Virus record (IMG/VR): IMGVR_UViG_3300005838_000883 | Location: 1 to 29,384 of that record | Reading direction: 5' to 3' (one strand) | Length of the DNA stretch: 29,384 bases | Source: a virus | Shown: positions 1,375-21,814 of the stretch, in pieces | Layout: each line of letters starts with the position of its first letter | Numbering within the stretch: position 1 is the stretch's first letter | Notes under the pieces: model-generated | Seen by the model: only the letters and a program-made list of their open reading frames with translations | Databases searched by the model: none | What the model was told of the DNA's origin: nothing | Translations under genes and position numbers: made by a program

Positions 1375-2347
1375 TTATTAAATCCTCAAATATTAAACTT
1401 AAATATTCAGTACACCTTTCTTCTATATATAATGAACTCTCATAATTCTCTCTACACATTATACTACACTCTTCATAAAATTGACCATCCTTTAACCTAC
1501 GAGCCAATTTCATAGCCGTTTCCATATCCCCATCATCTACTGATAACAACGGATGTAACTCTTCTTGTGTATCCAATCCCTTATACCCAATACAAGGTAT
1601 GCCGTGAAAAGCACAATTTAATGTAAATGTACCAGCCGCATGTGTTGGCATCAGATGAACCCCATACTTAAATTTACCTAAGTTATTTATCCACTCAACC
1701 CAAGTCATATAAGGAAAGTGATTTATATCCATCTCATCTTCTCTGTCAATCTTTCTACCCATTGATGGGGCTGATATTGGTACTCCAAACTCTTGAGCTA
1801 CTATATAAGAATCAAATCCACCATACCATCTAACCATATTACCACCGATTATAACTGAGTCATTTTTTCCTCTATTCGATTCAATACCCAACCTTTCAGC
1901 TAACATTAGTGTTGGCATCTTATGAACAGGTTTATTCGTCAAACCTTTATAGTATTTCACATCCTTATTATTATGAGCAAATAACATATCAAACTCTGTA
2001 AGAGCATTATACCACCAAATCTGTTGTTCCATAGTATAGTCTTGAAATAACCAATGTGGTCCTTCTTGCATTGAAATAGTTTTCTTACATAACTTCTTTA
2101 AGTCGCCCATCATATCAAACTTCATTAGTTCTTCTGTATTTGTTTTGGGTAGAGTTACAATACCAAAATCAAAGTGATTCTCACCAAAGTGCTGTAGTAC
2201 TTGTGGTATCTGAAAGATAGGGTAATGTTCAGCTCCTACTGTATACATCGTAGATACATCATTCCTCATATTAGGATTATCTAATCCAACCTTGCCTTGC
2301 CAACCACCTTCGGTGAACCAGACTATCTTATAATCTTTTAACCCCAC
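1367..2347 (-). CDS. Putative GT-B glycosyltransferase, GTG start
   Basis: A 326-residue protein with the look of a two-domain GT-B glycosyltransferase. The C-terminal half has a GGFDSYIVAQEFGVPIS segment, then GVHLMPTHAAGTFTLNCAFHGIPCIGY, which resembles the donor-binding part of GT-B enzymes, where a helix follows a Gly-rich turn and precedes a 'G-x-P-x-I' strand. No family can be named with certainty. The start is a GTG at 2345-2347 with a strong AGGA Shine-Dalgarno six nt upstream, inside the end of the preceding SDR gene (10-nt overlap). The downstream dehydrogenase overlaps its 3' end by 8 nt. It lies between sugar-nucleotide enzymes, supporting a role in glycan assembly. Confidence 0.6.
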   Translation of the reverse strand: MGLKDYKIVWFTEGGWQGKVGLDNPNMRNDVSTMYTVGAEHYPIFQIPQVLQHFGENHFDFGIVTLPKTNTEELMKFDMMGDLKKLCKKTISMQEGPHWLFQDYTMEQQIWWYNALTEFDMLFAHNNKDVKYYKGLTNKPVHKMPTLMLAERLGIESNRGKNDSVIIGGNMVRWYGGFDSYIVAQEFGVPISAPSMGRKIDREDEMDINHFPYMTWVEWINNLGKFKYGVHLMPTHAAGTFTLNCAFHGIPCIGYKGLDTQEELHPLLSVDDGDMETAMKLARRLKDGQFYEECSIMCRENYESSLYIEERCTEYLSLIFEDLINE

Positions 2348-3252
2348 ACCAATTCCTTTATTTCTTCTTCTGTCATCATCTCAGCCGACTTTGAATTGTA
2401 TGGTTCTGTTAATCTATCAGCGCCTTCATTCTCTTCCATACGAATATGAATATCATCACCATGTATATAGGTTCTATTTATTTCCCTTTCACTAATCAAA
2501 TCTTCATTAGTCTTTTCGCCTGGTCTTTTTCCTACTATATCAATAGGTACTTCTTCATTAGCTATAAACATAGCTAAATCTAACATATTAATACATTTCA
2601 TCTTATATGAGTTAACAAACCCACCACCATGATCCCGTGTCCATTTGATAGTTCTGTTGATTAAGTGTGCCGCATCTTCTTGTGTGAATATCAATCTGTT
2701 CATATCAGGATCCGTAAGCTTTAGTGGTTTACCCTCTGATTTTAACTTTAACCAAAATGGTAATACTGAACCATTACTGTGAGCTACGTTAGCAAATCTA
2801 GTTAATGCAAATCTATTAGCATTGTCATTATTACTATTCATAAACACTCGTTCCATCAGATACTTTGAAGCCCCATAAACACTCTCAGCCAAACAAGCTT
2901 TATCTGTACTGATACCAACTGTGATTGGAACGTCATTTATTATACTAGCCTCAACCACATTCAAACTACCCATCACATTTATGTTACAGCCAGCAATAGG
3001 ATTAGTCTCCATCAAATCAATATGTTTCATAGCAGCTGCATGAACTACTACATCGGGTTTAACGTCCTTAAATACTCGTAACAATAGTCCTTTGTCCTCT
3101 ATATTACCCACATAAGACTTTACCTCTGGATGTTCTCGTTTTAGTTCAGCTATCTTCTCTTCGTTTCTACTGACATTGATGTACTCATTGTCATTTAATT
3201 TGATAAGAGCTTTACCAACTGTTCCTGTACCACCTGTTATTAATATTTTCAT
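2338..3252 (-). CDS. UDP-GlcNAc 4,6-dehydratase-like SDR (PseB/FlaA1/CapE type)
   Basis: An extended short-chain dehydrogenase of 304 residues. The NAD(P) motif GGTGTVG is at 7-13. HAAAMKH (71-77) followed by a helix containing ETNP is the hallmark of the PseB/FlaA1/CapE/CapD group that removes water from UDP-GlcNAc. STDKA is at 115-119 and YGASK (126-130) supplies the Tyr-x3-Lys pair. Known members make UDP-4-keto-6-deoxy-HexNAc, the first step to pseudaminic acid, legionaminic acid, bacillosamine or UDP-FucNAc. Here it would feed an aminotransferase and the NeuB-like synthase further up the same cluster. The exact product (5-inverting or retaining) cannot be told from the sequence. TAATG overlap with the upstream glycosyltransferase. 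Confidence 0.82.
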   Translation of the reverse strand: MKILITGGTGTVGKALIKLNDNEYINVSRNEEKIAELKREHPEVKSYVGNIEDKGLLLRVFKDVKPDVVVHAAAMKHIDLMETNPIAGCNINVMGSLNVVEASIINDVPITVGISTDKACLAESVYGASKYLMERVFMNSNNDNANRFALTRFANVAHSNGSVLPFWLKLKSEGKPLKLTDPDMNRLIFTQEDAAHLINRTIKWTRDHGGGFVNSYKMKCINMLDLAMFIANEEVPIDIVGKRPGEKTNEDLISEREINRTYIHGDDIHIRMEENEGADRLTEPYNSKSAEMMTEEEIKELVWG

Positions 3253-4181: not shown

Positions 4182-4846
4182 ATTGCCAGTACCATTTCCA
4201 TGTTATATGGTTTATATATACCTATGTCATAATTTGGATTTATATCTAATAGCAAGCTCTTTACCTTGTCTAATGTAATTTCACTATAATCACATACCAT
4301 ATTACCATTAGAATCATACTGTTTTTGTCCAAACAAATGGGCATCATCTATTCCTATAATATGATTTTTAACATGATGTTTAGCTATTGTACTTAATTCT
4401 TTTATCAATGGAACGTCATCATCACCTCTGCTATACTTTGATGCCCCAGCATGCGCATCTAACCAAAAACAAACAGGTTCATCTAATTCCGATAACAGAC
4501 TCTTTAACATCTCTGGGGAGTCTCCACATATTAACTTTAACTTATTATCAAAGTAGTATTCACTACCACTAAAGGATTCATCCTTTTTATTCGTATGAAA
4601 ATCAAACTCTGATAAATCACCGGTGTGTTCCATAAACAACTTATATCTTTTAGATGCTACCTTGCATATTTCTTCACCAAGTTCTATTGTATATAACTTA
4701 TCAAAAGGATTGAAGTTACCATTTGTCTCTAACATTCTATGTGGAACTCCTCCCATAAAAGTACCCGTTTCAACAAATACTTTAGGTAAAGTTACATCAT
4801 GTTCCTGACAAATTGATTGGTATATTTCTGGTAATATATATCCCAT
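4178..4846 (-). CDS. Class I SAM-dependent methyltransferase-like protein
   Basis: A 222-residue Rossmann-like methyltransferase. Motif I is VFVETGTFMGG (about 23-33), with an acidic strand YTIEL near 52-56 for the ribose, ICGDSPEML near 106-113, and FWLDAHAGA (127-135) in the position of motif IV. The WLDAHA signature is seen in small O-methyltransferase-like proteins of polysaccharide clusters. It probably methylates a sugar hydroxyl of the glycan; the target is inferred only from context. A long loop (about 75-100) separates the strands. It sits between gmd and a CgeB-like glycosyltransferase with TAATG and ATGA junctions on either side. Confidence 0.68.
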   Translation of the reverse strand: MGYILPEIYQSICQEHDVTLPKVFVETGTFMGGVPHRMLETNGNFNPFDKLYTIELGEEICKVASKRYKLFMEHTGDLSEFDFHTNKKDESFSGSEYYFDNKLKLICGDSPEMLKSLLSELDEPVCFWLDAHAGASKYSRGDDDVPLIKELSTIAKHHVKNHIIGIDDAHLFGQKQYDSNGNMVCDYSEITLDKVKSLLLDINPNYDIGIYKPYNMEMVLAI

Positions 4847-5805
4847 TATGATAATAATTTTATATCGTTTGCAACCATTTTTGAAACCATTTGGTCAAAT
4901 GATGTTCTCGGTGTCCATCCTAATTTTTCTCTTGCTTTACTAGAATCACCACATAAGACATCCACTTCAGCAGGTCTCATATATCTCAAATCATGTTTAA
5001 CATACTTACTCCAATCTTGAATGTCAATACAACTAAAAGCAACATCTAAAAATTCCCTTATACTATAAGCTTTGCCGGTAGCAATAACATAATCATCAGG
5101 ACTATCTTGTTGCATCATCAACCACATACATTCTACATAATCAGGAGCGTAACCCCAATCTCTTTTTGAATCTAAATTACCTAGTGTTATGTAATCCGAT
5201 AAACCAAGTTTTATTTTAGCAACACCATCAGTAATCTTACGAGTTACAAATTCAATACCTCTACGTTCAGATTCATGATTAAAAAGAATACCACTAACAT
5301 TAAACATATCATATGATTCTCTGTAGTTCTTTGTTATCCAATGACCATAAAGTTTAGCAACACCATAAGGTGAGCGTGGATAGAAAGGTGTTGATTCTTT
5401 TGCTGGATTCTCTACCATTCTACCAAACATTTCAGATGTTGATGCTTGATAAAATTTAATCTCTTTACCATACTCTCTGATAGCTTCCAACATTCTTAGG
5501 GCACCAAGACCTGTTACATCACCTGTTTGTTCAGGTGTATTCCAACTTTCTCCAACAAATGATTGAGCAGCCAAATGATATATTTCATCAGGATCACATT
5601 CTTTTATACATCTACTTATTGAATTTTGGTCTGATAAATCACCATTAATAAAAGTTATTTTACCCTCTAAATGTTTTGTATTTAATCTGTTTGGATATGA
5701 GGTTCTTCTTTCCATACCATACACTTCGTATCCCTTTTCTAATAAGAAATCAGCAAGATGACTACCATCCATTCCGTTAATACCTGTTATTAATGCTCTT
5801 TTCAT
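4846..5805 (-). CDS. gmd: GDP-mannose 4,6-dehydratase
   Basis: Converts GDP-D-mannose to GDP-4-keto-6-deoxy-D-mannose, the precursor of GDP-fucose, GDP-rhamnose and GDP-perosamine. The 319-residue SDR has the Gmd-specific NADP motif GINGMDGSH (8-16), HLAAQSFVG, the catalytic STSEMFG (122-128), SPYGVAK with Tyr147-Lys151, NHESERRG, and LGNLDSKRDWGYAPDYV. Length is slightly under the usual 340-370. No GDP-fucose synthase (Fcl) or reductase is recognisable nearby; one of the two DegT aminotransferases could use the product to make a perosamine-type sugar, which is inference. Its ATG follows directly on the TAA of the upstream gene (TAAATG). Confidence 0.95.
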   Translation of the reverse strand: MKRALITGINGMDGSHLADFLLEKGYEVYGMERRTSYPNRLNTKHLEGKITFINGDLSDQNSISRCIKECDPDEIYHLAAQSFVGESWNTPEQTGDVTGLGALRMLEAIREYGKEIKFYQASTSEMFGRMVENPAKESTPFYPRSPYGVAKLYGHWITKNYRESYDMFNVSGILFNHESERRGIEFVTRKITDGVAKIKLGLSDYITLGNLDSKRDWGYAPDYVECMWLMMQQDSPDDYVIATGKAYSIREFLDVAFSCIDIQDWSKYVKHDLRYMRPAEVDVLCGDSSKAREKLGWTPRTSFDQMVSKMVANDIKLLS

Positions 5806-6852: not shown

Positions 6853-6853
6853 C

Positions 6854-8217: not shown

Positions 8218-8219
8218 TC

Positions 8220-10735: not shown

Positions 10736-11881
10736 CTAAACCCTCTCGTCAAAGTATTTATTAACCCAATAGATTACATAGTCAATATCCTCTTCAAGCA
10801 TTCCACTATGAACTGGCAAAGATATTAATTTTAACCACTCTACATCAGCAACAGGATAATCTCTATCCTGTAATAATGGAGCATATTTATGAAGTGGTTT
10901 AAAATGAACCGATGTATGTATCTTTTTACTAGCCAAATAATCTATTAAATCATCGCGTGTTGTTAAGGAATGACCACTACCATCAGGAGCCACATTCCAA
11001 ATCTTCTGTGGTACTTTAGCACAATAATACTGAACGGTTTCTGTGTGATATGGTCTTTCTATAATTGGATGTAATTCCTCATTATATCGTTTCTGTATAT
11101 GTCTACGAAATTCTAAATTAGCTGGTAACTTCTTCATCTGTTCCAAACAAATAGCCGCCATAATATCAATCATATAATATTTATAACCAATCAAATCCAC
11201 TTGATAATCCCAAGCATATCCCGGCGTCGCACCACTAGCTCTACTCCAAGTTGAAGATACGCCAAACCAAGTCATCTCTCTACATTTATCCGCGAGTTGT
11301 TTATCATTGGTTGTTATCATCCCACCATCGCCGCATGGCATAGTTTTTACTGCCTGAAATGACCAAACTGCAGCATCTCCTCCCAAACCTGCGCCTGGTG
11401 TATAGCAACTATGAGCAGTATCTTCAAGTATAAACCCATCAAATACTTTTCGTAGACCTTCGTAATCAGCAGGAACACCAGCTTGATTAACAGAAATTAA
11501 AACTTCACTATTTGATTTCTTATATCGTTCTACATCTTTAGGATCAATACACATGGTATCCGGTAATACATCAACTATATTTGAAGTATAATCATTCCAT
11601 AGTGGAATCATAGCAGTTGCTATAAATGATATAGTTGGATTAATTACATCTATACCCTTTAAACCCAAAGCCTTCATAATCAAATCTTGACCGTGTGAAG
11701 CACTAGTTACGGCTACAGCATATTTATGCCCAACCATTTTAGCAAATTTTTCTTCAAATTCAGCAACTTTAGGACCTTTACCCCACCATCCACTTTCAAT
11801 AACCTCTTGAAGAGCTTGAATTTCTTCCTTGCCGCCTTTAGGTCCTAAAACTGGTAACATTTTCTCTCTAATTTTCATCAT
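10736..11881 (-). CDS. DegT/DnrJ/EryC1/StrS aminotransferase (1)
   Basis: A PLP-dependent sugar aminotransferase of 381 residues, the normal length. GWWGKGPKVAEFEEKFA, HGQDLIMKAL (phosphate-binding start), EDTAHS (153-158; Asp154 contacts the pyridine N) and WSFQAVKTMPCGDGG with the Schiff-base Lys179 are all present. These enzymes aminate 4-keto (or 3-keto) 6-deoxy nucleotide sugars; partners here could be the PseB-like dehydratase or Gmd. It starts at one of two adjacent ATGs (11881 or 11878), with GAGG just upstream inside the end of the preceding gene. It is not close to the second aminotransferase at 13424, so the two probably use different substrates. Confidence 0.93.
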   Translation of the reverse strand: MMKIREKMLPVLGPKGGKEEIQALQEVIESGWWGKGPKVAEFEEKFAKMVGHKYAVAVTSASHGQDLIMKALGLKGIDVINPTISFIATAMIPLWNDYTSNIVDVLPDTMCIDPKDVERYKKSNSEVLISVNQAGVPADYEGLRKVFDGFILEDTAHSCYTPGAGLGGDAAVWSFQAVKTMPCGDGGMITTNDKQLADKCREMTWFGVSSTWSRASGATPGYAWDYQVDLIGYKYYMIDIMAAICLEQMKKLPANLEFRRHIQKRYNEELHPIIERPYHTETVQYYCAKVPQKIWNVAPDGSGHSLTTRDDLIDYLASKKIHTSVHFKPLHKYAPLLQDRDYPVADVEWLKLISLPVHSGMLEEDIDYVIYWVNKYFDERV

Positions 11882-12743
11882 CTTTCCTCACGTTTAGTTC
11901 TAAATATTTAATAACCTCGTCTCTAAATTCATTATAGTAATCTATAGACCTAGTTGCACCTCTACCACCATGATGTAGAAATGGAACTTCATTTACCCAA
12001 GCTTCTTCTCCAAAACTTAAATTTAACAAGTGTTCTGATTTTAATTCTCTATTATTCCAACTATTTTTCAGAATAATATATGGTTGATTGTTCTCTTTCG
12101 CCCATAATGATAACAATCCATATGTATCTTTGTAATGACAATTTGGATACAAGTCTCCGGGTTCTTTATAAAAATTATTTTCTATTGTTTCTCGTTTTAA
12201 AATAGACCATTGTGGTATACATGGAATGTCAATGTCATTTCTCCAACCATATGAAACATAAGAATTTTCTTCTAACATCGGTAGTACGTGCTCTACCCAC
12301 TTATTTAAAAAAACAACATCATGTTCCACTTGACAAATATATTTTCCATTTCCAATTTTAGTGCCTATAGTCATAGCTTCAGATTGTAACCAACTAGCAA
12401 ATCCCAATGGTCTTTTATCATATTTACTATACCCATCCCAACCATAATTATCAATAAAATATTCTTGTGGATATTTTTGATTAGCATTGGTGGGTACAAC
12501 TACCCCATCATCTTGGTTAACTTGGTGTATGCCTTCAACAATAACAACATTATCGTCTTCTCCAAACATTTCGTTAAGTTTTTTTAATTCAAGACTATTT
12601 TCAGAATTGTCTCCATTATTAACTATGTAATATTTATATGGATAGTCTACATACTTTTTAATACTTTCATGTATTAATTTTACATAATCTATTCGTTTGA
12701 AAACTACTGTTATGAAATCTATACTATCTTCATATGTTTTCAT
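11868..12743 (-). CDS. GT2-like (GT-A) glycosyltransferase with C-terminal HHGGRG motif
   Basis: A 291-residue paralogue of the 9820-10728 protein. It opens with IDFITVVFKRIDYVKLIHESI, has an YYIVNNGDNS segment typical of GT2 beta2, and KYICQVEHDVVFL with E140-H-D142 in the DxD position. It ends with VPFLHHGGRGATRSIDYYNEFRDEV, matching the partner's C-terminal motif. The acidic motif differs (EHD against DQD), as does the middle region, suggesting different donors or acceptors. It overlaps the aminotransferase start by 14 nt and the upstream sulfotransferase-like gene by an ATGA. Confidence 0.68.
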   Translation of the reverse strand: MKTYEDSIDFITVVFKRIDYVKLIHESIKKYVDYPYKYYIVNNGDNSENSLELKKLNEMFGEDDNVVIVEGIHQVNQDDGVVVPTNANQKYPQEYFIDNYGWDGYSKYDKRPLGFASWLQSEAMTIGTKIGNGKYICQVEHDVVFLNKWVEHVLPMLEENSYVSYGWRNDIDIPCIPQWSILKRETIENNFYKEPGDLYPNCHYKDTYGLLSLWAKENNQPYIILKNSWNNRELKSEHLLNLSFGEEAWVNEVPFLHHGGRGATRSIDYYNEFRDEVIKYLELNVRKDDEN

Positions 12744-13360
12744 TTACTTGCCCCCTTAACTATAGTTCCGTTCTGTTTAACTTTATCGTACAATTCACCA
12801 TACAACGTTTGTAATTTATTTTGAATATTTTCTGATTGGTTTGTCCAATCTGATGCACGAACTTTCATTGGTGGAAATGTATTTATATATGATTTATCTA
12901 TTTCCAAATAATTAAATATAAGTTCTAGATTATTCCACATGTTTTCAAACTCAACAAATAATATATCATAGTTCACTTTCGCATCCAACCATGTATCTAA
13001 ATGAGGTTCTAAACCTAACAAATCTTCACCATTATTTAAATAATCTTCAACAGACCAATTTGGATTAATTTCAGAATATCTCCCATTCAAATCCTCACAA
13101 TGTCTCTGAATCCAAGTTTTATCAACTTGTGACCTTCTATAATAAGATAGTAATGCATTATATGGATTTCCATATATGTATAATACTTTAGTATCTTCAT
13201 TTATTATAGGTTCAAATTCATTTTGCTCACCGTTGTAGCTAGGCTGTAAAATAGGTAATTTTGGCCAATGTGTATGCCATACATAATAACTTGTACCAAA
13301 ATTTTTTGTTAAAGTTTTAGAACCAACTCCACCCCAAGCATTTAAATATAAATTATTCAT
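12740..13360 (-). CDS. Sulfotransferase-like P-loop protein
   Basis: A 206-residue protein whose start GGVGSKTLTKNF resembles the 5'-phosphosulfate loop of PAPS-dependent sulfotransferases, followed by a conserved HTHWP (compare the early His/strand in the family) and TKVLYIYGNPYNALLSYYRR, which matches the 3'-phosphate-binding 'Y-R-NP-x-D-x-x-x-S' segment. If right, it would sulfate a hydroxyl of the glycan. The segment has G-N-P in place of R-N-P, so function is not assured. AAGGGG lies nine nt before the ATG. Its 3' end overlaps the next GT2-like gene by an ATGA. Confidence 0.5.
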   Translation of the reverse strand: MNNLYLNAWGGVGSKTLTKNFGTSYYVWHTHWPKLPILQPSYNGEQNEFEPIINEDTKVLYIYGNPYNALLSYYRRSQVDKTWIQRHCEDLNGRYSEINPNWSVEDYLNNGEDLLGLEPHLDTWLDAKVNYDILFVEFENMWNNLELIFNYLEIDKSYINTFPPMKVRASDWTNQSENIQNKLQTLYGELYDKVKQNGTIVKGASK

Positions 13361-13414
13361 TTATTTAAACCCCTTTATTAAAATAATTATTTTTTCCAAA
13401 TGTAAATGTCTCAT
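13361..13414 (-). CDS. Tiny 17-codon reading frame with strong ribosome binding site
   Basis: An ATG at 13412-13414 is preceded by GGAG at a perfect six-nt spacing (complement of 13421-13424). It opens a 17-residue frame (MRHLHLEKIIILIKGFK) that ends in TAA immediately followed by the ATG of the sulfotransferase-like gene (TAAATG). It could be a leader peptide coupling translation, or the remnant of a deleted gene whose start signals survive. No homology can be claimed for such a short peptide. Confidence 0.3.
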   Translation of the reverse strand: MRHLHLEKIIILIKGFK

Positions 13415-13423
13415 ATTAAACTC

Positions 13424-14539
13424 CTATAAATTAAAATTATAAATTACATCACACACATGATTAACTTCATCATCAGTTAAAGATTGGTGTAAAGGTAGGC
13501 ATAATGTTCTATCCATTATTTTTTCTGTATTTTTTAATGAAAGCCCATCTTCATAGTACTTGACCTTATGTAAAGGGTAATATCTAAATGAAGTATATAC
13601 TCCATTGTCTTTTAAATGTCTAGCCAACTCATCTCTTTTATCTGTTTGAATATGATACATATAGTATGAACTTTCTTTATTGATTGGTATCTCTCGTGGA
13701 ACATCAATCCAATCCACATGTTTCAATGTATTGTTATACATTGTATGTATTTCTTTTCGCCTTGATATAAAACCATCTAACTTTTTAAGTTGTTCTAAAC
13801 CTATAGCAGCAGTAACATCATTTATTATTACTCTTCTACCAGGCAACTCTATATCAAATTCCCACCATTTGGTATCTATAGAATTTGAAAATCCACTAGC
13901 ACTTTTTAAACCCAAGTATGCTTCATAATCAAGTCTTTTAGCTAACTCAAGGTCTTTACAATAAACTAAACCACCATCACCCATAACTAGTATTTTCATA
14001 GCATCAAATGACCAAAGACCTATATCACCGATAGTTCCTGTAAACTGATTGTTGTATTTTGATATGGGACTATTAGCATTATCTTCTATTAACTTAATAT
14101 TGTGTTTATCACACAAATCCACTATTTCATCCATATCACATGGAACACCAGCATAATGTAATATTATTACCGCTTTTGTTTTTTTAGTTATATTTTTTTC
14201 TATGTCATCAGCACTTACATTTAAAGTTCTAGTATCAACATCACAGAATACTGGTTTTGCACCACAATTCACGATAGCATTTGCAGCACCTATAAAACTA
14301 ACTGATGGTAAAATTACCTCATCACCATCAGTTATATCTAAAATATTCATTGACTGAAATAAACCCTCGGTACAACTACAGATAGTTTTAAAATTATTGG
14401 GATGTGATTTTAACTTTAATGAAAACTTTTCAACAAATTTTTCTGTTAGTTTTCCCTTTCCCAGCCAATTACTTTCAAATACCTTTTGTATTGCGTCAAG
14501 TTCTTCTTGACCAAGTGAAGGTTGATAAATATTAATCAT
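13424..14539 (-). CDS. DegT/DnrJ/EryC1/StrS aminotransferase (2)
   Basis: A second PLP-dependent sugar aminotransferase, 371 residues. NWLGKGKLTEKFVEKF, CTEGLFQSMNIL, HYAGVPCDMDEI, EDNANS (152-157, Asp153 for the pyridine nitrogen) and WSFDAMKILVMGDGG with Schiff-base Lys182 mark the family. The sequence is clearly distinct from the other copy at 10736. Candidate reactions are PseC-like or Per/WecE-like amination of a 4-keto-6-deoxy sugar nucleotide; position near the nonulosonic acid genes makes a PseC/LegC-like role plausible, but this is inference. The start overlaps the upstream small gene by 8 nt and lacks a strong ribosome binding site, suggesting coupling. Confidence 0.93.
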   Translation of the reverse strand: MINIYQPSLGQEELDAIQKVFESNWLGKGKLTEKFVEKFSLKLKSHPNNFKTICSCTEGLFQSMNILDITDGDEVILPSVSFIGAANAIVNCGAKPVFCDVDTRTLNVSADDIEKNITKKTKAVIILHYAGVPCDMDEIVDLCDKHNIKLIEDNANSPISKYNNQFTGTIGDIGLWSFDAMKILVMGDGGLVYCKDLELAKRLDYEAYLGLKSASGFSNSIDTKWWEFDIELPGRRVIINDVTAAIGLEQLKKLDGFISRRKEIHTMYNNTLKHVDWIDVPREIPINKESSYYMYHIQTDKRDELARHLKDNGVYTSFRYYPLHKVKYYEDGLSLKNTEKIMDRTLCLPLHQSLTDDEVNHVCDVIYNFNL

Positions 14540-14756
14540 TTTCAGGAAATACCTCTATCACTAAAACATTAACATCATTAACTACTAACATAGATCCATC
14601 TTTAAGTTTCATTTTTGTAAATTGACCTTGTTTAATTGAATCCGTATCAATACCATGATATGTTCTTTTTACCCCACCAACAAAATGTATTATCTGAGTG
14701 ACATATTTACCTTGAACATTCACAGATGATTGTAAATTTATCTCTGGTGTTTTCAT
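14532..14756 (-). CDS. Small conserved-looking protein of unknown function
   Basis: A 74-residue protein I do not recognise. It reads as mostly beta strands (YVTQIIHFVGGVKRTYHGI; SMLVVNDVNVLVIEVFP) with no Cys and no transmembrane segment. The gene is tightly coupled: its ATG overlaps the TGA of the sialyltransferase-like gene (ATGA) and its stop lies in the start of aminotransferase 2. That packing and a clean frame support a real gene. A role as a small accessory to the flanking enzymes is possible but unsupported. Confidence 0.55.
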   Translation of the reverse strand: MKTPEINLQSSVNVQGKYVTQIIHFVGGVKRTYHGIDTDSIKQGQFTKMKLKDGSMLVVNDVNVLVIEVFPEND

Positions 14757-15427
14757 GGCATTACCTTTTTGACTTTCAAATTATCAATACCAGACTTAAT
14801 TTTTGATGTTGTATATAAATTAAATTTTATACTTGATTTTTTCTTTACAAAATTTAAAAAAAACTCTTGCATCTTGTCAGTAGGTTCACCGCTACGAATT
14901 GCTACTTTTGTTGGTGCTTCATTTCTTGCTCTTCCATTAGAATTTGTCAAATATCCAGTATCATCATAAAAATCTAATCCTACAATGTTAACCTCATCAG
15001 GTTCAAGTTCATTAACAATATACAACAACGCATCTAAACCACTAGTAGGTGAAGTAAAGGCATATCTGGGGTGAGATATCATATCTTCTTTATTTATATC
15101 ATCTAAATTTTTAACCGGTAATATACCACCACGACCTTCTATTTGTAAAATATGATTTGGAATTGGTGGCGATACTTCTTTCACATAAGGTAAGACGATT
15201 TTGTCAAAATTATATTTTTTATAAATATCATTAGCACCAGCATTTGGAAAATATGCAGCTAAACTTAATACATGAGTTACGGTAGAACATGCAGATAGAT
15301 ATTCATGTACTTGAATATTCTCTACTTCATAATGAAATGAGTTAACTATAACACTATGATCTACTTTGGGTACATTACTAATATAACCCAAAGAAGTTCC
15401 TCGACATAATAATGAAACTGTTTTCAT
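14753..15427 (-). CDS. Sialyltransferase-like protein (GT42/GT29 or Maf/DUF115-like)
   Basis: A 224-residue protein resembling Campylobacter Cst-type sialyltransferases and related GT29/DUF115 folds. An N-terminal strand and G-x-S turn (SLLCRGTSLG, 5-14) corresponds to the CMP-binding start; SPTSGLDALLYIVNEL (126-141) followed by NIVGLDFYDD (147-156) closely mirrors the 'TSG...ALGYKEIYLSGIDFY' region of those enzymes; EPTDKMQEFFLNF resembles the 'TD-x-x-x-x-EFL' segment. A catalytic His equivalent is not obvious. It would transfer the CMP-activated nonulosonic acid to the glycan. It lies three nt after a CMP-nonulosonate synthetase gene, which supports the call. Alternatives are Maf-type transferases or an MptE-like enzyme. 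Confidence 0.55.
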   Translation of the reverse strand: MKTVSLLCRGTSLGYISNVPKVDHSVIVNSFHYEVENIQVHEYLSACSTVTHVLSLAAYFPNAGANDIYKKYNFDKIVLPYVKEVSPPIPNHILQIEGRGGILPVKNLDDINKEDMISHPRYAFTSPTSGLDALLYIVNELEPDEVNIVGLDFYDDTGYLTNSNGRARNEAPTKVAIRSGEPTDKMQEFFLNFVKKKSSIKFNLYTTSKIKSGIDNLKVKKVMP

Positions 15428-15430
15428 TTT

Positions 15431-16066
15431 TTAATCCGAAATTAATTTTTTTATCAATGACAAATCATCATAAGTGTCTACCTGGAAACTTCTTTCAAGT
15501 GGCATCTCAACAGCACCAATTCTCCCACTATATCTCAATTTAGAATCTAATAATCTCTTCCGAGTTGTAATATAAAACGCTCCATTTTCAACATAATGTT
15601 CTTCAACTTGTTGTCTCATTGGTCTATTATAGATATCCCACTCCGATTCAACCTTCAAAGACCATCTCGGTATCCAATGTTCTCTATATACACTAAAAAC
15701 CGAATCATACTCATCCATCATTTCTAAACCTTTATTTATATCCGTAGATTTTATTAGTGGTGATGTCGCTTGAATAAAAACCATTATATCAAAATCATTA
15801 TTCTCAGTAAAATGTAATAATGTTTCTTCACTCGGTGACGTATCGGTTGCTATCTCATCTGGTCTCATTTGAACTCTTGCACCCAAACCACCTGCTATAT
15901 TAGATATCCTAACCGAATCGGTAGATACCCATGTCTCATCTACATTTGATTTTAAAGATGATTGTATTGAATAATAAATTAAAGGTTTACCCTTAATATC
16001 TACTAAATTTTTTAAAGGTATACCCTTACTTCCACCCCTTGCTGGTATAACTGATATAATTTTCAT
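15431..16066 (-). CDS. CMP-nonulosonic acid (sialic/pseudaminic/legionaminic) synthetase
   Basis: Activates a nine-carbon acid with CTP to give CMP-sugar, the donor for sialyltransferases. The 211-residue GT-A-like nucleotidyltransferase has the NeuA motif IPARGGSKGIPLKN (7-20), WVSTDS (46-51), RPDEIATD (68-75), FIQATSPL (97-104), EHYVENGAFYI and a C-terminal SFQVDTYDDL with acidic metal ligands. Length matches catalytic domains of NeuA/PseF/LegF. Which acid is used cannot be determined from these motifs. The gene overlaps the upstream methyltransferase by an ATGA and is followed at three nt by the sialyltransferase-like gene. Confidence 0.92.
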   Translation of the reverse strand: MKIISVIPARGGSKGIPLKNLVDIKGKPLIYYSIQSSLKSNVDETWVSTDSVRISNIAGGLGARVQMRPDEIATDTSPSEETLLHFTENNDFDIMVFIQATSPLIKSTDINKGLEMMDEYDSVFSVYREHWIPRWSLKVESEWDIYNRPMRQQVEEHYVENGAFYITTRKRLLDSKLRYSGRIGAVEMPLERSFQVDTYDDLSLIKKLISD

Positions 16067-16734
16067 ATTTTAGTTAAATGTAAAGTTAAACAGCCTTCTT
16101 GATCAGAATAATCCTTTCCGTTTATCTGTTGGCCATCTTCCTCATATTCTATAACATGATTTTTAACTTTAAAATTACTATCTTTAATTTTAATAAACCA
16201 CTCATCACTAGAAATCAAACCAGTATGTAGATTTTCTAAATTACTAGCTTCGTAAACTGGTTTCCAATTATCAGGTCTATGTGATTCTGGTACAAGAGCT
16301 ATATCTAAAAATATATTACAATCTTTAGTAGTTACTCTGTATATATCTTGTAATGATTCTTCAATATCTTCTGGTAAGACATGTTCTATTACATCTGAAC
16401 TAAAAATAACATTAAAATAACCATCATCAAATGGAATGTTAGGTAACGCACCTACTTTAAACCTATCATCATCATTTGGATTTTTTTTAATACACATTTG
16501 AATTGCTTTATCAGCGGGATCAATACCATAACATATATTTGAATTTACTAAACTATTTATTTTTGAAACACCACTTCCATTAGAACATCCTATATCCAAC
16601 ACTCTATTATTTTCATTAAGAGTATAGTTATCTACTAGGAAATCTAATAAGTTATTACCAGCAAATCCACTACTATGATACCCCCTATCATAAAGGTCAT
16701 TGTATACTTTCTTATAAAAATTATTTGATTCCAT
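16063..16734 (-). CDS. SAM-dependent methyltransferase (Methyltransf_11-like)
   Basis: A 223-residue class I methyltransferase with motif I RVLDIGCSNGSG (44-55), the acidic ribose-binding residue in ICYGIDPAD, and motif IV NVIFSSDVIEHV, which is the SAM-MTase 'DVIEH' of the UbiE/Methyltransf_11/23 group. It lies between the NeuB-like fusion and the CMP-synthetase, so O-methylation of the nonulosonic acid or its precursor is a fair guess; methylated sialic-like acids are known in nature. GGAG precedes the ATG by eight nt, in the 11-nt gap after the fusion gene. Confidence 0.8.
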   Translation of the reverse strand: MESNNFYKKVYNDLYDRGYHSSGFAGNNLLDFLVDNYTLNENNRVLDIGCSNGSGVSKINSLVNSNICYGIDPADKAIQMCIKKNPNDDDRFKVGALPNIPFDDGYFNVIFSSDVIEHVLPEDIEESLQDIYRVTTKDCNIFLDIALVPESHRPDNWKPVYEASNLENLHTGLISSDEWFIKIKDSNFKVKNHVIEYEEDGQQINGKDYSDQEGCLTLHLTKI

Positions 16735-16745
16735 AATATATTCTC

Positions 16746-18602
16746 CTATAGATACTTTGCAAACTTATCTTCTAAACAACATATACCATCATACGTACCT
16801 TGACCATTATGTAAATGACCACTCCAAACTTCAGTAACCCAAGAATAATCTATATCTGATATAATATTAAACACGGACTTAAAATCTATTTCACCAGTTC
16901 CTATTTGTAAACCTTCTGCATTTACTCCAAGTGCATCTGATATATGTAAATGAGAAATATAATTTTTAATAGATTTAGTATAATCCAATAAATCAACACC
17001 ATAATCATTACAATATAATTTAGCATGACAAATATCATATGTCATTTTAAGATTAAAATATTCACAAAATGTTATCATATCATCTACTGGAGCAAAACTA
17101 TATTGATGCCATTCACCACCCAAGTACCACGGCCTTGAAGGTAAGTTTTCAGGTATAATTTCTATATCATCTGGTGAGTAATCTATCTTCTTAAAGTTAT
17201 CTATCACTCTTTCCATTTTATTTTGCAAAACCATATGATATGGTTCTACTTTATATAAAGACATACCTCCCAAATGGACTACTAATTTTGGTTTAGCTTT
17301 TTTCCAATTCTTAGAGATTTCAAGTGTCTTGTCGATTGTTTTTCTTAAAATATCAAAACTTGGATTTAAAATATCAGGGTCAATTGAACATAAATCAAAA
17401 ATTCTTCTACCTATTATCTCAGGAGCGTGTATTATTAATTCAGAGTTGTCATTTCTTTCACTAAAATCGATGTCTAAATCAGACTCAGATAAATGAAACT
17501 CCATAACTGGAGCATTTAAAGTTTTATAATCTTCATAGTCATGAAATCTACACTTGACTCCCCATCTTTTTGAAAAGTTAAATTGACGCCAATCTTTTAA
17601 TTCTAACAATTTTTTGAAATCAGTTATAGAAATATAATCACCTTTCTTAACTTCTCTCTTTAATTTCTTACCATAAAATTTATCTATTTCGTGTGGAAAA
17701 ATACCCTTTCCCGGGGACTTAAACTCCACATCTCTCTTGGATAGTTTATGATTTATATGTAAGTCAATAGTAGATACTGTTGATTTCGCAAACACTTCTT
17801 TATTTAAAGTTTCTGCTTGGTTAACTCTCTTTTCACTACCAAGAGAATTTTCCAAATTTCTTATATCAGAAACCATAGTTTTGAACTCCGATGGTAATAA
17901 AGATGCTACATGGTCTGGACCAGTTTGATTCCTATCTAACGTAATATGTTTTTCAATTATTGACGCACCTAAAGATACAGCAGCTATGGGAATAAAAGTT
18001 CCACGTTCATGTCCAGAATAACCTACTCTTTTAGTTAACTTCTTTAACTTATCAATAAACTTCAAAGATATTTCTTCATATGGTGTTGGATAAGTAGAGT
18101 TAGCTAACAATAAAGAGAAATCTACATTATTCTTTTTATAATATGAAACACACTTTTTTATATCCTTATACTCCCACATACCAGTAGAAATTATTAATGG
18201 TAATCCATACGAATTACACTTATCTATCAATTCAAAATTAGTCATATCAGCAGACGATATCTTAAATTTAGACACCCCAAGGTTTCCAACGAAATCAGCT
18301 GATATCTTATCAAATGGAGTTATAATCAAATCTAACGATAACTCATCACACTTATCTTTTATGACCAAATAGTCATCATTATTTAACTCTATCTCTTTTA
18401 ACAGCGGTATTAAATATTCAAAGTTCCACTCCGCGCTATTAGGATCATTCAATATTTTATCCGAATAAATCTCATTTAAATCCCTCTTCTGAAACTTTAC
18501 CGCATCAACTTTACATTCCTTTGCTTTTTCTATTAGTTGCAAAGCGGTTGATAGTTTACCATTATGGTTAATTCCTATTTCGGCTATTATATATGTTTTC
18601 AT
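16746..18602 (-). CDS. NeuB-family synthase + SAF domain fused to xylose-isomerase-like TIM barrel
   Basis: A 618-residue three-part protein. Residues 1-265 form a NeuB/PseI/LegI synthase barrel that condenses PEP with a 6-carbon amino sugar: AEIGINHNGK (7-16), AVKFQ (34-38), ISTGMW (138-143), GYSGHERG (194-201), EKHITLD (217-223) and GPDH (228-231). Residues about 275-335 form the antifreeze-like SAF domain (SPGKGI, YGKKLKREVKKGDYI). Residues about 340-618 form a second TIM barrel of the xylose-isomerase/AP-endonuclease-2 type, with candidate metal ligands E485, D523/H526, H551/H553 and E591. Normal NeuB is about 340 residues, so the tail is an added enzyme, perhaps an isomerase or epimerase making the substrate. 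ATGA overlap with the upstream RmlB-like gene. Confidence 0.9.
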   Translation of the reverse strand: MKTYIIAEIGINHNGKLSTALQLIEKAKECKVDAVKFQKRDLNEIYSDKILNDPNSAEWNFEYLIPLLKEIELNNDDYLVIKDKCDELSLDLIITPFDKISADFVGNLGVSKFKISSADMTNFELIDKCNSYGLPLIISTGMWEYKDIKKCVSYYKKNNVDFSLLLANSTYPTPYEEISLKFIDKLKKLTKRVGYSGHERGTFIPIAAVSLGASIIEKHITLDRNQTGPDHVASLLPSEFKTMVSDIRNLENSLGSEKRVNQAETLNKEVFAKSTVSTIDLHINHKLSKRDVEFKSPGKGIFPHEIDKFYGKKLKREVKKGDYISITDFKKLLELKDWRQFNFSKRWGVKCRFHDYEDYKTLNAPVMEFHLSESDLDIDFSERNDNSELIIHAPEIIGRRIFDLCSIDPDILNPSFDILRKTIDKTLEISKNWKKAKPKLVVHLGGMSLYKVEPYHMVLQNKMERVIDNFKKIDYSPDDIEIIPENLPSRPWYLGGEWHQYSFAPVDDMITFCEYFNLKMTYDICHAKLYCNDYGVDLLDYTKSIKNYISHLHISDALGVNAEGLQIGTGEIDFKSVFNIISDIDYSWVTEVWSGHLHNGQGTYDGICCLEDKFAKYL

Positions 18603-19522
18603 TTATTAAAAAAATCCCCATTGGTCGTATACCAATCTATTAACTCTGGCATAGTTTCTTTTAGAAAACGTTTTGGCATCCATCCAATATCACGTAACTT
18701 ATCACTATTTGATAGATAAATTGGATCTTGAAATAACCTATCATCCACATACTCAACACAATCATTAAAATCCTTTCCCATATTATCACAAATCATTTTT
18801 GTAACTTCCAATACATTATAGGATTCATCCGTAGATACATTGTAAATATTTTTATTCACACCTTTATCCATAACGACTTCAACGGCATCTACAAAATCAT
18901 CTACGTTTAAAAAAAATCTAACTTGTTTACCAGAACCATGTATTGGTAATTTTTTATTATCTTGTAACTTACTAATAAAATAAGGTATTAATTTATCAGG
19001 AAATTGCATTGTCCCATATGTATTATTTAATCTAACAACTTTCCAATCTAACCCATAACAATAACCATAAGCATGTAAAATAGATTCACCACCAGCTTTA
19101 GTTGCAGAGTATGGATTAGTAGGTAAAGTCATTGAATCTTCATATAACGGCTCTCCATTTCCAATAACCTCATCTGTACTTAAATGTATTAAAGGTGTAT
19201 TAGTATCAGAGCAGTATTTACTAAGATAATGTAAACCTAATATGTTTGTATCTATAAAATCAACTGGTCTTTCAAATGATTCATCAACATGTGTTTCAGC
19301 AGCTGAATTTATAATCAAATCAAAATCAGTATCTAATTTATCCCACACTTCTTTAGTCTGTAAGCGTTCTATAATTATAGGAATATTTACAGAACACAAT
19401 CTATCAATACAAGATGTATGTCCCAAAGAATCAAATACTACTACTTCGTAATTTTTATTATAAAATCTATTAACTAAATGTGAACCAACAAAACCCGCTC
19501 CGCCTGTAACTAATATTTTCAT
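18599..19522 (-). CDS. RmlB-like NDP-sugar 4,6-dehydratase/epimerase (SDR)
   Basis: A 307-residue extended SDR close to dTDP-glucose 4,6-dehydratase. GGAGFVG (7-13) binds NAD; AAETHVDESFERPVDFIDTN (74-93) is a strong RmlB-like segment; STDEVIG (115-121) holds the Thr-Asp-Glu catalytic set; NPYSATKAG gives Tyr138-Lys142; RLNNTYG and QFPDKLIPYFI follow. Length is a little under RmlB (about 340-355). It probably makes a 4-keto-6-deoxy sugar nucleotide, although UDP-sugar epimerases share much of this pattern. No RmlA, RmlC or RmlD is visible, so the donor pool would come from the host. ATGA overlap with the upstream glycosyltransferase. Confidence 0.82.
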   Translation of the reverse strand: MKILVTGGAGFVGSHLVNRFYNKNYEVVVFDSLGHTSCIDRLCSVNIPIIIERLQTKEVWDKLDTDFDLIINSAAETHVDESFERPVDFIDTNILGLHYLSKYCSDTNTPLIHLSTDEVIGNGEPLYEDSMTLPTNPYSATKAGGESILHAYGYCYGLDWKVVRLNNTYGTMQFPDKLIPYFISKLQDNKKLPIHGSGKQVRFFLNVDDFVDAVEVVMDKGVNKNIYNVSTDESYNVLEVTKMICDNMGKDFNDCVEYVDDRLFQDPIYLSNSDKLRDIGWMPKRFLKETMPELIDWYTTNGDFFNK

Positions 19523-20547
19523 GATATCTGCTCTACTCCACTTAAATTTTTAAAAATATCATACCAATACAAACAAAGCTTACGATAATCATACCCGCCC
19601 ATAAACTTTTTTCTAATATTTTCATTTATCTCAACATTTAATTCATCAAAATTTGATAATATATAATCAATTTTTTCTTCTAAGTCCGACCAATCATACT
19701 TTACATCAATATATGTTTTACCTGGTTCATATATATCTGGTATAGTTTTAACTAAATCTTGATTAGGTTTTATCATTATAGTTCCATACTGCATACATTC
19801 AAAATCTCTGAAACATATCTCGCCCATACCAAATGGCGAAAATGATATTTTAGAATCCATTAGATTTTTAATATATTCTTCAAATGGTAATCTATCATAT
19901 ATCATATTATATTTAGATTTTAAGGGTTCTAAAACTTTCCATAACCCCCCTCTATGTTCAGTATAAAGGTGACTATTCTGTGATTTATGATCTTCATTAT
20001 AATCATGATTACCTCTGAATATAGCACAGACATCAATACTTTTGTCTTGTTTTATTGGTTGAAAATTTCTATAATTTGGAACAAGTTGCCCGACATTCCA
20101 ACCTGTAAATTTTATTCTTTTCCACATATCATCGGAAATATCATATGATAAATCTAAATCACTACCGCTACCCCAAAACCATTTATTATGAGCATAGGGA
20201 ACTTTATAAGCATCTTGAGATGGTAACATTTGATTTTTGAATAGATAAGTAGCATCACTTTGTTCAAATACTTCAAACCCCCCCATCAATGAAGTCGAAT
20301 CTGAACCCTCGAATAGAAAATAATCACCAGTAATTTTAGATAAATTATCTAATCCATAATCAATACTTTCTTGAAGAGATTTTTTCTTATCAATAAAGTC
20401 ATGCATTCCAATAAATAGATAATCAAAATCATCAGAATCCGTTAATTCAATACTATAATCTCTTAAAATATCTTGTATAATACCAAATGGCCTAAACGTA
20501 GGTTCATTTCGACCAACCGTTGGATTTTGTATTTTTATTTTAATCAT
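19519..20547 (-). CDS. GT-B glycosyltransferase-like protein
   Basis: A 342-residue protein. The second half contains VCAIFRGNHDYN, then ISFSPFGMGEICFRDFECMQYGTIMIKP followed by PGKTYIDVKYDWSDLEEKIDYIL. This order (short strand with SPFG, an acidic helix with RDFE/E, G-x-x-M-I-K-P, then a YI-V...WSDLEEKI helix) is that of the exostosin/CgeB/GT1 donor-binding domain. The N-terminal half is hydrophilic with no clear motif. Donor and acceptor unknown. It ends in an ATGA with the RmlB-like gene and starts within the end of the small upstream gene (8-nt overlap). Confidence 0.6.
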   Translation of the reverse strand: MIKIKIQNPTVGRNEPTFRPFGIIQDILRDYSIELTDSDDFDYLFIGMHDFIDKKKSLQESIDYGLDNLSKITGDYFLFEGSDSTSLMGGFEVFEQSDATYLFKNQMLPSQDAYKVPYAHNKWFWGSGSDLDLSYDISDDMWKRIKFTGWNVGQLVPNYRNFQPIKQDKSIDVCAIFRGNHDYNEDHKSQNSHLYTEHRGGLWKVLEPLKSKYNMIYDRLPFEEYIKNLMDSKISFSPFGMGEICFRDFECMQYGTIMIKPNQDLVKTIPDIYEPGKTYIDVKYDWSDLEEKIDYILSNFDELNVEINENIRKKFMGGYDYRKLCLYWYDIFKNLSGVEQIS

Positions 20548-20734
20548 CTAAAGAAAAATTCTCATTTATAAATTCTTTTACCTTAATCCAACCTTGTCTT
20601 GGATATTTTGTGTAAATTTCTTTATCCCCCAACACAATAACTTCTTGCAATACTTCTTTTATTAATTGAACACTAGAATCATTTTCGTGACCTTCATACG
20701 ATAACTCTATACCATCTTTATTTTTATATTTCAT
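20540..20734 (-). CDS. Small protein of unknown function
   Basis: A 64-residue acidic protein that I do not recognise. It has a start KYKNKDGIELSYEG, a likely helix SSVQLIKEVLQEVIVLG, and a second helix near the C-terminus (GWIKVKEFINENF). There are no cysteines, no signal peptide and no membrane segment. It is locked in the operon: ATGA with the upstream GT2 gene and 8-nt overlap with the downstream glycosyltransferase, which argues for a translated gene. Confidence 0.5.
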   Translation of the reverse strand: MKYKNKDGIELSYEGHENDSSVQLIKEVLQEVIVLGDKEIYTKYPRQGWIKVKEFINENFSLDD

Positions 20735-21363
20735 CTCATAATCCCAGCATATTTTTCATTTTGTTGTTCTTGTTTTTCAATCGTCTTATGATGTAATATA
20801 CAAAAAGGTTTTTCCGTAGGTAAATGTGAATATGTTTGAAACCCAATCAACATCTCATGAACTGGTTTTTCCCATTTTATATTTGGTCTATTGCGAAATA
20901 CTCGACCTTGCCAATCAGGAAAATTAACCCAACCTTCTTGATTAACACTCCAATGCCAATATTTAGCATGTTGTTCAGTTAAACCCTCTACTGTATTTAT
21001 TCTTGGTAAGTAAATTAAATCAATTTCGTTCTCTTCAACAATACTATGTATGTTTTTTATCAACCAAAGACTTATCATCTCATCAGCATCAAGGTTAAAA
21101 CTATAATCTCCACTACACATACTTTTTAAATGATTCTTCTGTGAAGCAAAATCACCCAATAGATTTCGTTGTTCAAATACTATATCGTGTGCAGATACAT
21201 AGAAATCTAATAATTGTTTTGTTTTTTTATCATCAGAATAATCATCAAGTATTACAATCTCATCTTCAGGTTGTTTCCACTTGATTAAGAACTTTAGTAA
21301 CTTCTCTAATGAATTCGTTTCGTTATGAGTTAATATGGAATAACTAATCTTCACTAATGCCAA
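20731..21363 (-). CDS. Family 2 glycosyltransferase, WaaE/KdtX-like; non-ATG start
   Basis: About 207-210 residues with a classic GT2 GT-A fold: ISYSILTHNETNSLEKLL, IVILDDYSDD, GDFASQKNHLKSMCSGDYSFNLDADEMIS with DxD at D92-A-D94, and GRVFRNRPNIKWEKPVHEMLIG. The 'DFASQKN...LDADE...VHE' set is that of WaaE/KdtX-type enzymes that add glucose to lipopolysaccharide core. No ATG is available near the N-terminus; it must start at TTG 21363 or GTG 21354, both inside the preceding gene (11-20 nt overlap), so low, coupled translation is likely. Confidence 0.85.
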   Translation of the reverse strand: MALVKISYSILTHNETNSLEKLLKFLIKWKQPEDEIVILDDYSDDKKTKQLLDFYVSAHDIVFEQRNLLGDFASQKNHLKSMCSGDYSFNLDADEMISLWLIKNIHSIVEENEIDLIYLPRINTVEGLTEQHAKYWHWSVNQEGWVNFPDWQGRVFRNRPNIKWEKPVHEMLIGFQTYSHLPTEKPFCILHHKTIEKQEQQNEKYAGIMR

Positions 21364-21814
21364 CCATGTTTAATTTAATATTCGTAACCTTTAGTGCTGT
21401 CAACTTAGTTGTTTTGTAACTACGATATGCTTGTTTAAATACATTATCAGCACTAACGATATCTGAATAAAATCTTTTGGTAGTCATAGCAGAACGTTTC
21501 TTTGGGTTAGCTATTTGTATCCTAAAATACTCTTCCTTTAATGATATTAGATTTTCCCTTTCATCCACTTCAGTTTTTTTCATATCAATAACTTTAAATA
21601 GTTTTTTCACCTTACTTGCATTAATATAATTAATATTCAAACCCTCTAGTAAGTTAGTTTCTTTATCACGATGTAAGAATAATAAAACAGGTCTTGGATC
21701 CTTAACACCTGATTCCGAATAATTAAACGTCACAATCATACCAGGTAATATCTTACCAATAGGTAATGTTTGTTCTGATAGAATTATCTTACGATTGTTG
21801 TATCTGGTCGCCAA
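21344..21814 (-). CDS. Unrecognised phage-type protein, uncertain start
   Basis: Up to 156 residues. The opening LPIGKILPGMIVTFNYSE...DPRPVLLFLHRDKETNLLEGLNINYIN suggests a small beta barrel (SH3-like) of a kind I associate with T4-like phage hypothetical proteins, but I cannot name it. The C-terminal half is basic (ANPKKRSAMTTKRFYSD; YRSYKTTKL), which may mean nucleic-acid contact. No upstream ATG exists: the longest form begins at TTG 21814, overlapping the zinc-ribbon gene by 26 nt; the first ATG (21739) would cut into the conserved-looking start. Confidence 0.6.
   Translation of the reverse strand: MATRYNNRKIILSEQTLPIGKILPGMIVTFNYSESGVKDPRPVLLFLHRDKETNLLEGLNINYINASKVKKLFKVIDMKKTEVDERENLISLKEEYFRIQIANPKKRSAMTTKRFYSDIVSADNVFKQAYRSYKTTKLTALKVTNIKLNMVGISED

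Follow-up and report, generated by a model that had tools for sequence, protein, structure and literature searches.

The virus record IMGVR_UViG_3300005838_000883, whose full 29,384 bases we call the window, encodes a run of genes that probably makes a sialic-like acid of unspecified structure, activated with cytidine monophosphate (CMP). All genes of this cassette lie on the - strand: a NeuB-family synthase fusion of 618 amino acids (aa; 16746..18602), a class I S-adenosylmethionine (SAM) methyltransferase of 223 aa (16063..16734), a NeuA-type cytidylyltransferase, or CMP-sugar-acid synthetase, of 211 aa (15431..16066), and a GT42-like (CstI/CstII-like) candidate sialyltransferase of 224 aa (14753..15427). 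An earlier sequence-only reading of this DNA had placed four such genes here, and all open reading frames (ORFs) were confirmed. It had also described junctions ranging from an overlap of 4 nucleotides (nt) to an 11-nt gap, which the ORF coordinates bear out: 11 nt separate the NeuB and methyltransferase genes, the methyltransferase and NeuA genes overlap by 4 nt, and a 3-nt gap precedes the transferase gene. The fusion partner of the synthase, which it had not named, is by Pfam a sugar-isomerase-like TIM barrel. From comparison with related phages, the best reading of these genes is an exchangeable phage glycan cassette at one slot.

The synthase and its fused TIM barrel

The fusion comprises a NeuB domain (residues 23-258), a SAF-like segment (280-329) and a xylose-isomerase-like TIM barrel (388-606). 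The NeuB domain (PF03102) scored 239.4 bits against a Pfam cut-off of 22.1 and is thus a member of the NeuB family. In a structure model of moderate confidence (predicted local distance difference test score, pLDDT, of 68), the NeuB part was closest to NeuB, PseI and SpsE structures (SpsE being 1vli), with Z values of 26.8-29.8, whereas the synthases of 3-deoxy-D-arabino-heptulosonate 7-phosphate (DAHP) and 3-deoxy-D-manno-octulosonate 8-phosphate (KDO8P) gave 24.5 or less; the synthase therefore does not fall among non-NeuB aldolases. Columns H215, H236 and D247 of meningococcal NeuB, which we take to have metal and catalytic roles, are kept in the window synthase as H198, H219 and D230 in alignments to PDB entries. 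Subfamily profiles, proposed earlier as a check, supported the NeuB and NeuA families and no equivalog: the synthase scored 298.8 bits against the NeuB_NnaB cut-off of 399.65 (TIGR03569) and 218.9 bits against the PseI cut-off of 340.25 (TIGR03586), NeuA scored 112.7 bits against the PseF cut-off of 205.7 (TIGR03584), and no window protein reached the cut-offs for PseB, PseC, LegB or LegC.

In a tree of 34 rows, with L070, L075, L076, L077 and L083 left outside, seven fusions formed one clade (96/92), which five short viral synthases joined (100/97), apart from PseI and NeuB. Judged by sequence, the window synthase belongs to a separate NeuB clade outside the tested NeuB and PseI clades. The mark of this clade is YSGHE in place of SDH; it is present in 12 of 14 fusions, the others having FSGHE (L089) and YSSHD (L095). 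Arg occupies the Arg314 column, which we take to bind the N-acetyl group in NeuB, in the meningococcal enzyme, in PseI of C. jejuni and in each of the 20 NeuB-/PseI-type Campylobacterota rows of the tree; in all 14 fusions it is Ser, Ala or Cys. R314A and R314K structure entries were named among the PDB matches. The Glu134 column is Asp in 13 of 14 fusions and Glu in L095. Two points weigh against a working synthase of the expected kind: the SAF domain scored 20.6 bits, just under its cut-off of 21, and both Glu134 (to Asp) and Arg314 (to Ser) are changed in the window protein relative to the characterised enzymes, so its activity or its substrate is uncertain.

The C-terminal barrel matched AP_endonuc_2 (xylose-isomerase-like) with 58.8 bits against a cut-off of 31.1; its identity rests on Pfam, the structure-comparison list having been filled by NeuB matches. 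Columns D523, H526, H553, D556, E591 and H596 are kept in all 14 fusions and in both aligned split TIM proteins, as would be expected of a working metal enzyme in which these residues presumably bind the metal.

Fusion and split forms both occur in other viruses. Among 80 viral loci, the best 80 of at least 544 IMG/VR relatives retrieved with scan patterns from the NeuB part only, nine carry the fusion (L084-L091 and L095, with the fused ORFs of L091 and L095 assigned by eye; L084 is a sister assembly of the window virus) and three carry the two parts as adjacent genes (L092-L094). No TIM gene, fused or adjacent, was found in the representatives of the remaining clusters among these 80 loci. 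The short viral NeuB proteins are of about 280 aa (L009:3663-4517, L011:4366-5202, L014:7639-8475 and L015:4482-5336; L013:842-1690 is longer). They resemble the window system in synthase clade and in their related NeuA partners (55-71% identity, with a common EHWIP motif among viral NeuA relatives), but both the SAF-type segment (by alignment) and the TIM barrel are missing from them, and none of the five aligned is acidic at the Glu134 column, yet they lie within NeuA clusters.

Other NeuB arrangements were seen in viral loci. L012:843-2366 joins a viral NeuB and a methyltransferase-like C-terminal part in one ORF (507 aa, by eye), and the counterpart of this cluster in L013 has a WecB-type epimerase over the cut-off. 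Directly after the NeuB-TIM fusion and NeuA in L085 comes a second, divergent short NeuB-family ORF (L085:7513-8274; 253 aa, 75 bits), and in L178, L181, L197 and L198 NeuA is followed by similar NeuB-family ORFs lacking the SGH/SDH motif.

The fusion is also an existing bacterial architecture, though rare in the bacterial order sampled: it was found in two of 199 genomes of that order, one being the genome on which the sample was centred. The nearest bacterial relatives found are fusions in four Sulfurimonas metagenome-assembled genomes (MAGs; 56-58% identity), each lying no more than about 2 kb from a NeuA-like gene (identified by family scans in two, by eye in the others). In L042, NeuA, Maf and flagellin come after the fusion in that order (flagellin by eye, the rest by Pfam). 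In L039 and L041, genes for a GDP-mannose-dehydratase-like protein, a methyltransferase and a NeuA-like protein follow the fusion (Pfam for L041 only), and Maf-like and flagellin-like genes lie upstream (Maf by Pfam in L041, flagellin by eye). More distant versions were found on a rhizobial plasmid (36%) and in another genome of the order sampled (38% over the barrel). The phage cassette thus shares its NeuB-SAF-TIM fusion near NeuA with these Campylobacterota flagellin islands, but differs in having a GT42-like protein and no Maf match or flagellin among the scanned window proteins.

A gene for GDP (guanosine diphosphate)-mannose dehydratase occurs near the fusion in four of eight viral fusion clusters, against one among the 53 remaining NeuB clusters (p=6e-4 in a post hoc Fisher test on the best 80 of at least 544 relatives, with at most 5 kb scanned on each side), and a gene resembling it adjoins the fusion in two of the four Sulfurimonas loci (L039 and L041, by Pfam for L041 only; not the other two). 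The window itself encodes a GDP-mannose 4,6-dehydratase about 11 kb from the fusion (4846..5805, - strand; TIGR01472, 420.4 bits, cut-off 415). With half of the viral fusion clusters so equipped, a GDP-linked 6-deoxyhexose is a possible origin of the acceptor sugar. The missing Arg314, the isomerase joined to the synthase and the repeated presence of a GDP-mannose dehydratase together suggest an acceptor other than the usual one, which these features do not identify. The hydrolase NeuC offered no further discrimination: it was absent over the cut-off from four of six fusion-bearing bacterial genomes (in G015 the synthase is cut by the contig end), but also from 153 of the 199 genomes of the order, and the MAGs are incomplete, so this comparison is uninformative.

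NeuA, methyltransferase and GT42-like protein

NeuA belongs to the NeuA-type family by its match to CTP_transf_3 (PF02348; 95.4 bits, cut-off 22.6); in PDB it matches the CMP-N-acetylneuraminic acid (CMP-Neu5Ac) synthetase 1qwj (E=3e-32). It contains ARGGSKGIPxKN, which we take to be a NeuA-type motif, and the earlier call of a CMP-nonulosonate synthetase with NeuA motifs therefore holds. The protein is closest to viral NeuAs. It is 70% identical to NeuA of L009, where the synthase is of the YSGHE type, and 39% identical to NeuA of L046, so NeuA and synthase class travel together in these loci.

We surveyed 82 viral NeuA loci (61 clusters at 95%; best matches, including the window virus and possibly some misclassified contigs). 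Within the fetched stretches, a NeuB-family ORF was present in 53 of the 61 clusters, a GT42/GT29-like ORF in 25 and NeuC in two. L015:177-893 and L014:3868-4620, both within viral NeuA/NeuB clusters, exceed the cut-off of Glyco_transf_29, a sialyltransferase family.

The methyltransferase, named as such in the sequence-only reading, matched Methyltransf_11 with 54.5 bits (cut-off 21.2). A conserved three-gene core of fusion, methyltransferase and NeuA was considered and dropped, as the phage and Sulfurimonas methyltransferases are only 25% identical, over 93 columns only.

The 224-aa protein had no direct match in Pfam, NCBIfam, PHROGs or PDB, and its assignment comes from a stepwise profile search. 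A profile made from the window protein and two phage relatives (69-70% identity) and run on 2,485 ORFs recruited proteins of L220 (E=3e-38), L208 (2e-7) and L209 (2e-5), and the next round added L200, L196 and one L183 gene (E 1e-9 to 7e-8). With the resulting nine-row profile, A12, all nine PDB matches were named sialyltransferases, the best at E=1.4e-7 and over about 190 positions. This profile is indirect, reaching the PDB through recruited viral relatives. Its rows do not include L210/L211, an apparently fused protein of 533 aa (E=2e-21), or L088 (E=3e-10), both of which outscored some of the rows used. A preceding profile that included weaker members reached a single sialyltransferase (E=1.8e-5); a control profile of the weaker members plus one more, alone, gave no sialyltransferase in PDB. 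Glyco_transf_29 matched one of ten related rows (E=0.024). The motifs G.S, N.F, SG..A and G.DFY of the profile match are common to the window protein and GT42 (CstI and CstII). The window protein is therefore a GT42-like protein and a candidate sialyltransferase, and the sialyltransferase-like protein claimed earlier stands as a remote relationship and not as a direct match.

Unlike CstI/CstII, the protein has no pairwise match to that family and no histidine at the loop column of CstII H188, presumably the catalytic base. This absence, common to the window protein, L220 and L208, counts against the proposed transfer step, as do the poor AlphaFold model (three sequences, pLDDT 43) and the fact that neither the three-row nor the six-row starting profile (the nearest relatives) found any sialyltransferase in PDB. 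The histidine is present in six of the eight other rows (L029, L046, L209, L200, L196 and L183). Such a loss, with the mosaic origin of the genes, is what one would expect if the cassette, or at least its transferase, were a captured relic with little function. We consider this improbable: the frames are intact in the window and its sister assembly and the genes overlap, the TIM-barrel columns are conserved, and the arrangement recurs in other viruses.

Exchange at one slot and the candidate sugar

The window virus is a marine phage. Among its proteins are two head-maturation proteases of ClpP-like type (phrog_94) and a member of an exonuclease family. Sister assemblies match it closely: L030 and L031 at 99.96-100% over window 1-22148, and L033 and L034 at 99.6-100% over window 1-27792, beyond which L033 diverges. 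This close relative, by its contig L033, has replication genes that we take to be T4-like, a DNA polymerase (phrog_262, E=7e-196) and a clamp loader (phrog_168, E=2e-78). Another sister contig encodes thymidylate synthase, Hsp20, peptide deformylase and phage families named for porphyrin and cobalamin biosynthesis. A search for the major capsid protein Gp23 gave no match in 11 records, in which no control matched either. Adjoining the DNA polymerase, L033:188-1450 is an ORF that by eye resembles the C-terminal part of an outer-membrane receptor and has no PHROG match; it may reflect a chimera or a captured host gene.

A related phage, L029, matches the window by blastn at 75-88% on both flanks of the cassette (window 22199-24898, 18785-21520, 14948-15428, 13395-14539 and 11894-12749). 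Between the matched flanks lies the exchanged segment (15429..18784, - strand), with no blastn match to L029. The upstream border of the slot is an RmlB-like short-chain dehydrogenase/reductase (SDR) of the nucleotide-sugar 4,6-dehydratase class (18599..19522, - strand; TIGR01181, 246.3 bits, cut-off 365.1), which L029 shares from position 18785 onward and which overlaps the NeuB gene by 4 nt. On the other side, a small ORF of 74 aa from the ORF list (14532..14756, - strand), with no family match in Pfam, NCBIfam or PHROGs, overlaps the transferase gene by 4 nt and, by 8 nt, a DegT-family sugar aminotransferase that is kept downstream of the slot (13424..14539, - strand; Pfam; 87.7% nt identity to L029 over 13395-14539). 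Pfam also identifies a second DegT enzyme (10736-11881), so both aminotransferases of the sequence-only reading are real.

In L029, and with intact genes in L046 and L047 (IMGVR_UViG_3300020165_002465 and IMGVR_UViG_3300020595_001974), the same slot contains genes for NeuB, NeuC and a PseB-like protein, together with a NeuA unlike that of the window. NeuB, NeuC, NeuA and a GT42-like gene form one run in L046:2204-6693, in L047 and in L029:7636-12084. NeuC of L046 scored 407 bits (cut-off 235.9), and its NeuB, at 378.8 just under 399.65, groups with KIGSGEC/LSDH-type NeuB and keeps Arg314. NeuC, NeuB and NeuA catalyse the three steps from uridine diphosphate N-acetylglucosamine (UDP-GlcNAc) to CMP-Neu5Ac, so phages of this type appear to hold a complete candidate sialic acid route. 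The PseB-like gene and aminotransferase beside it may serve another amino sugar, since the Neu5Ac pathway needs neither. A B12-binding radical SAM protein lies in the glycan clusters of L029 (14658-16196; Pfam) and L046 (9301-10824) and was not seen at the corresponding place in the window.

The window phage could itself make ordinary Neu5Ac, from host N-acetylmannosamine, as L046 and L047 probably do. It has in common with the NeuB-NeuC-NeuA phages the slot, the same kind of synthase and CMP-synthetase, the related glycosyltransferase and the DegT gene, and its NeuB domain scores higher with NeuB_NnaB than with PseI. Against this stand the Ser at the Arg314 column, which is Arg in L029 and L046, the different clade, the absence of a NeuC-family (PF02350) match, and a NeuA only distantly related to that of L046; the fused TIM barrel and the second altered active-site column further set the window apart from such operons. 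We regard Neu5Ac as a rather unlikely product.

The sequence-only reading had set the genes beside the pseudaminic and legionaminic routes. Its PseB-like 4,6-dehydratase is present at family level (2338..3252, - strand; Polysacc_synt_2), but its 182 bits fall short of the equivalog cut-off of 407.75. It had already remarked that acetyltransferase and hydrolase steps were not visible, and in the three contigs of the virus, all fragments, we found no match to PF00132 or PF13302, the two acetyltransferase families searched, or to the hydrolase families PF02350 (NeuC type) and PseG (TIGR03590). The route is therefore incomplete in these contigs. The host or a missing part of the contigs could supply both steps, and the TIM barrel might replace the hydrolase/epimerase step. 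A partial pathway of this kind, completed by the host, would make use of the PseB-like dehydratase and the DegT enzymes, and a Sulfurovaceae contig (L043) with a 64% NeuB relative cut by the contig end also has NeuA-/PtmE-like genes (by eye) and NeuC over the cut-off. The PseI, PseB, PseC, PseF, LegB and LegC cut-offs were missed, however, and in the tree the synthase groups with neither PseI nor NeuB; we consider such a pathway unlikely, if slightly less so than Neu5Ac. Of the module that had been proposed, making and activating a sugar acid agree with the NeuB and NeuA classes and transfer is probable from the GT42-like protein, whereas the pseudaminic/legionaminic route was not supported. 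Counting against a sialic-like acid in general, no gene plainly making a free hexosamine was found in the virus contigs.

Proposed function and biological meaning

What the genes are and how they are ordered, their intact frames, the conserved columns, the clade, the fused and split forms and the slot exchange are all read from sequence; from them we infer the role of the TIM barrel, the sugar, the acceptor, the virion target and the following order of reactions. The C-terminal TIM barrel, apparently an intact metal-type sugar isomerase/epimerase, would prepare or alter a free sugar, which the NeuB domain would condense with phosphoenolpyruvate, yielding a 3-deoxy-2-ulosonic (nonulosonic-like) acid. 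Activation of this acid as a CMP sugar would fall to the NeuA-type enzyme, and a possible methylation of the sugar to the methyltransferase, and the GT42-like protein would transfer the CMP sugar onto a glycan built by the other glycosyltransferases of the phage. More speculatively, the YSGHE-class NeuB/NeuA pair might form a pathway, carried mostly by viruses, to a sugar acid outside the known N-acylated nonulosonic acids, in which an isomerase, fused or adjacent, takes over from NeuC in making the acceptor, perhaps via a GDP-linked 6-deoxyhexose, and which phages swap with a Neu5Ac cassette, changing the virion glycan as bacteria change serotype.

The most likely target would be a virion protein glycosylated in the cytoplasm, and the virion is our tentative choice. 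With a 19-residue hydropathy window, none of 39 - strand window ORFs exceeded 1.61, whereas a membrane-like control reached 2.63, so there is no evident flippase or polymerase. This weakly favours cytoplasmic protein glycosylation over lipid-linked polysaccharide synthesis, and we prefer virion decoration for that reason. Maf-dependent flagellin glycosylation, placed in the cytoplasm in PMC4065374, is a precedent. Several observations pull the other way. The hydropathy test is crude, its highest values (1.61 for ORF 5806-6933 and 1.59 for 27232-27414) lie near the usual threshold, and three ORFs of sister contig L031 exceed it. Among the annotated ORFs of these fragmentary contigs, the ClpP-like head-maturation proteases are the only structural genes recognised, so no virion target can be named.

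The sugar acid could instead be destined for the surface polysaccharide of the infected cell, for example to block superinfection. Family scans show many glycosyltransferase-like and sugar-nucleotide genes in the window cluster, and GT42 enzymes act on lipooligosaccharide, PDB 9c08 being so named. The window shows no clear membrane-spanning protein, however, and no evident flippase, polymerase or initiating transferase, and we hold this destination to be possible but somewhat less likely than the virion. Among the glycosyltransferase-like and sugar genes in window 1367-8966, five ORFs had no Pfam match at E 0.01 (1367-2347, 4178-4846, 5806-6933, 6854-7606 and 8220-8966).

The phage gene set has partial parallels in known systems. 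The legionaminic pathway of Bacillus subtilis uses a synthase, SpsE, that is among the structural matches of the window protein, but as described in PMC7439481 that route needs spsD and spsG, and the window virus has no PseG-family match in its three contigs. Phage-encoded O-acetyltransferases that act on Acinetobacter nonulosonic acids (PMC6586298) also touch this chemistry, but they modify a sugar made by the host, whereas the window phage itself carries synthase and activation genes. In the portions of the open-access PubMed Central literature covered, with subscription papers and preprints outside its scope, we found no phage nonulosonic acid synthase and no description of this gene combination, the divergent clade, the viral fused and split forms or the slot exchange. 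Within that scope, the parts are known families and their combination, the clade, the viral forms and the exchange appear new.

Sugar genes are a known part of phage genomes, but relatives of this synthase are nearly absent from the annotated phage collection, in which three of 50,697 records matched it and one matched NeuA (a Moritella viscosa record among these may be a bacterial contig), and PHROGs gave no family for it. By contrast, pattern scans of IMG/VR found at least 544 stretches encoding synthase relatives and 377 encoding NeuA relatives. The fused or split synthase-isomerase pair is a defined enzyme open to direct testing. Should even some of these viruses produce sialic-like acids, a viral reservoir of acidic sugars would have been overlooked in the sea, which would bear on adsorption, host range and recognition.

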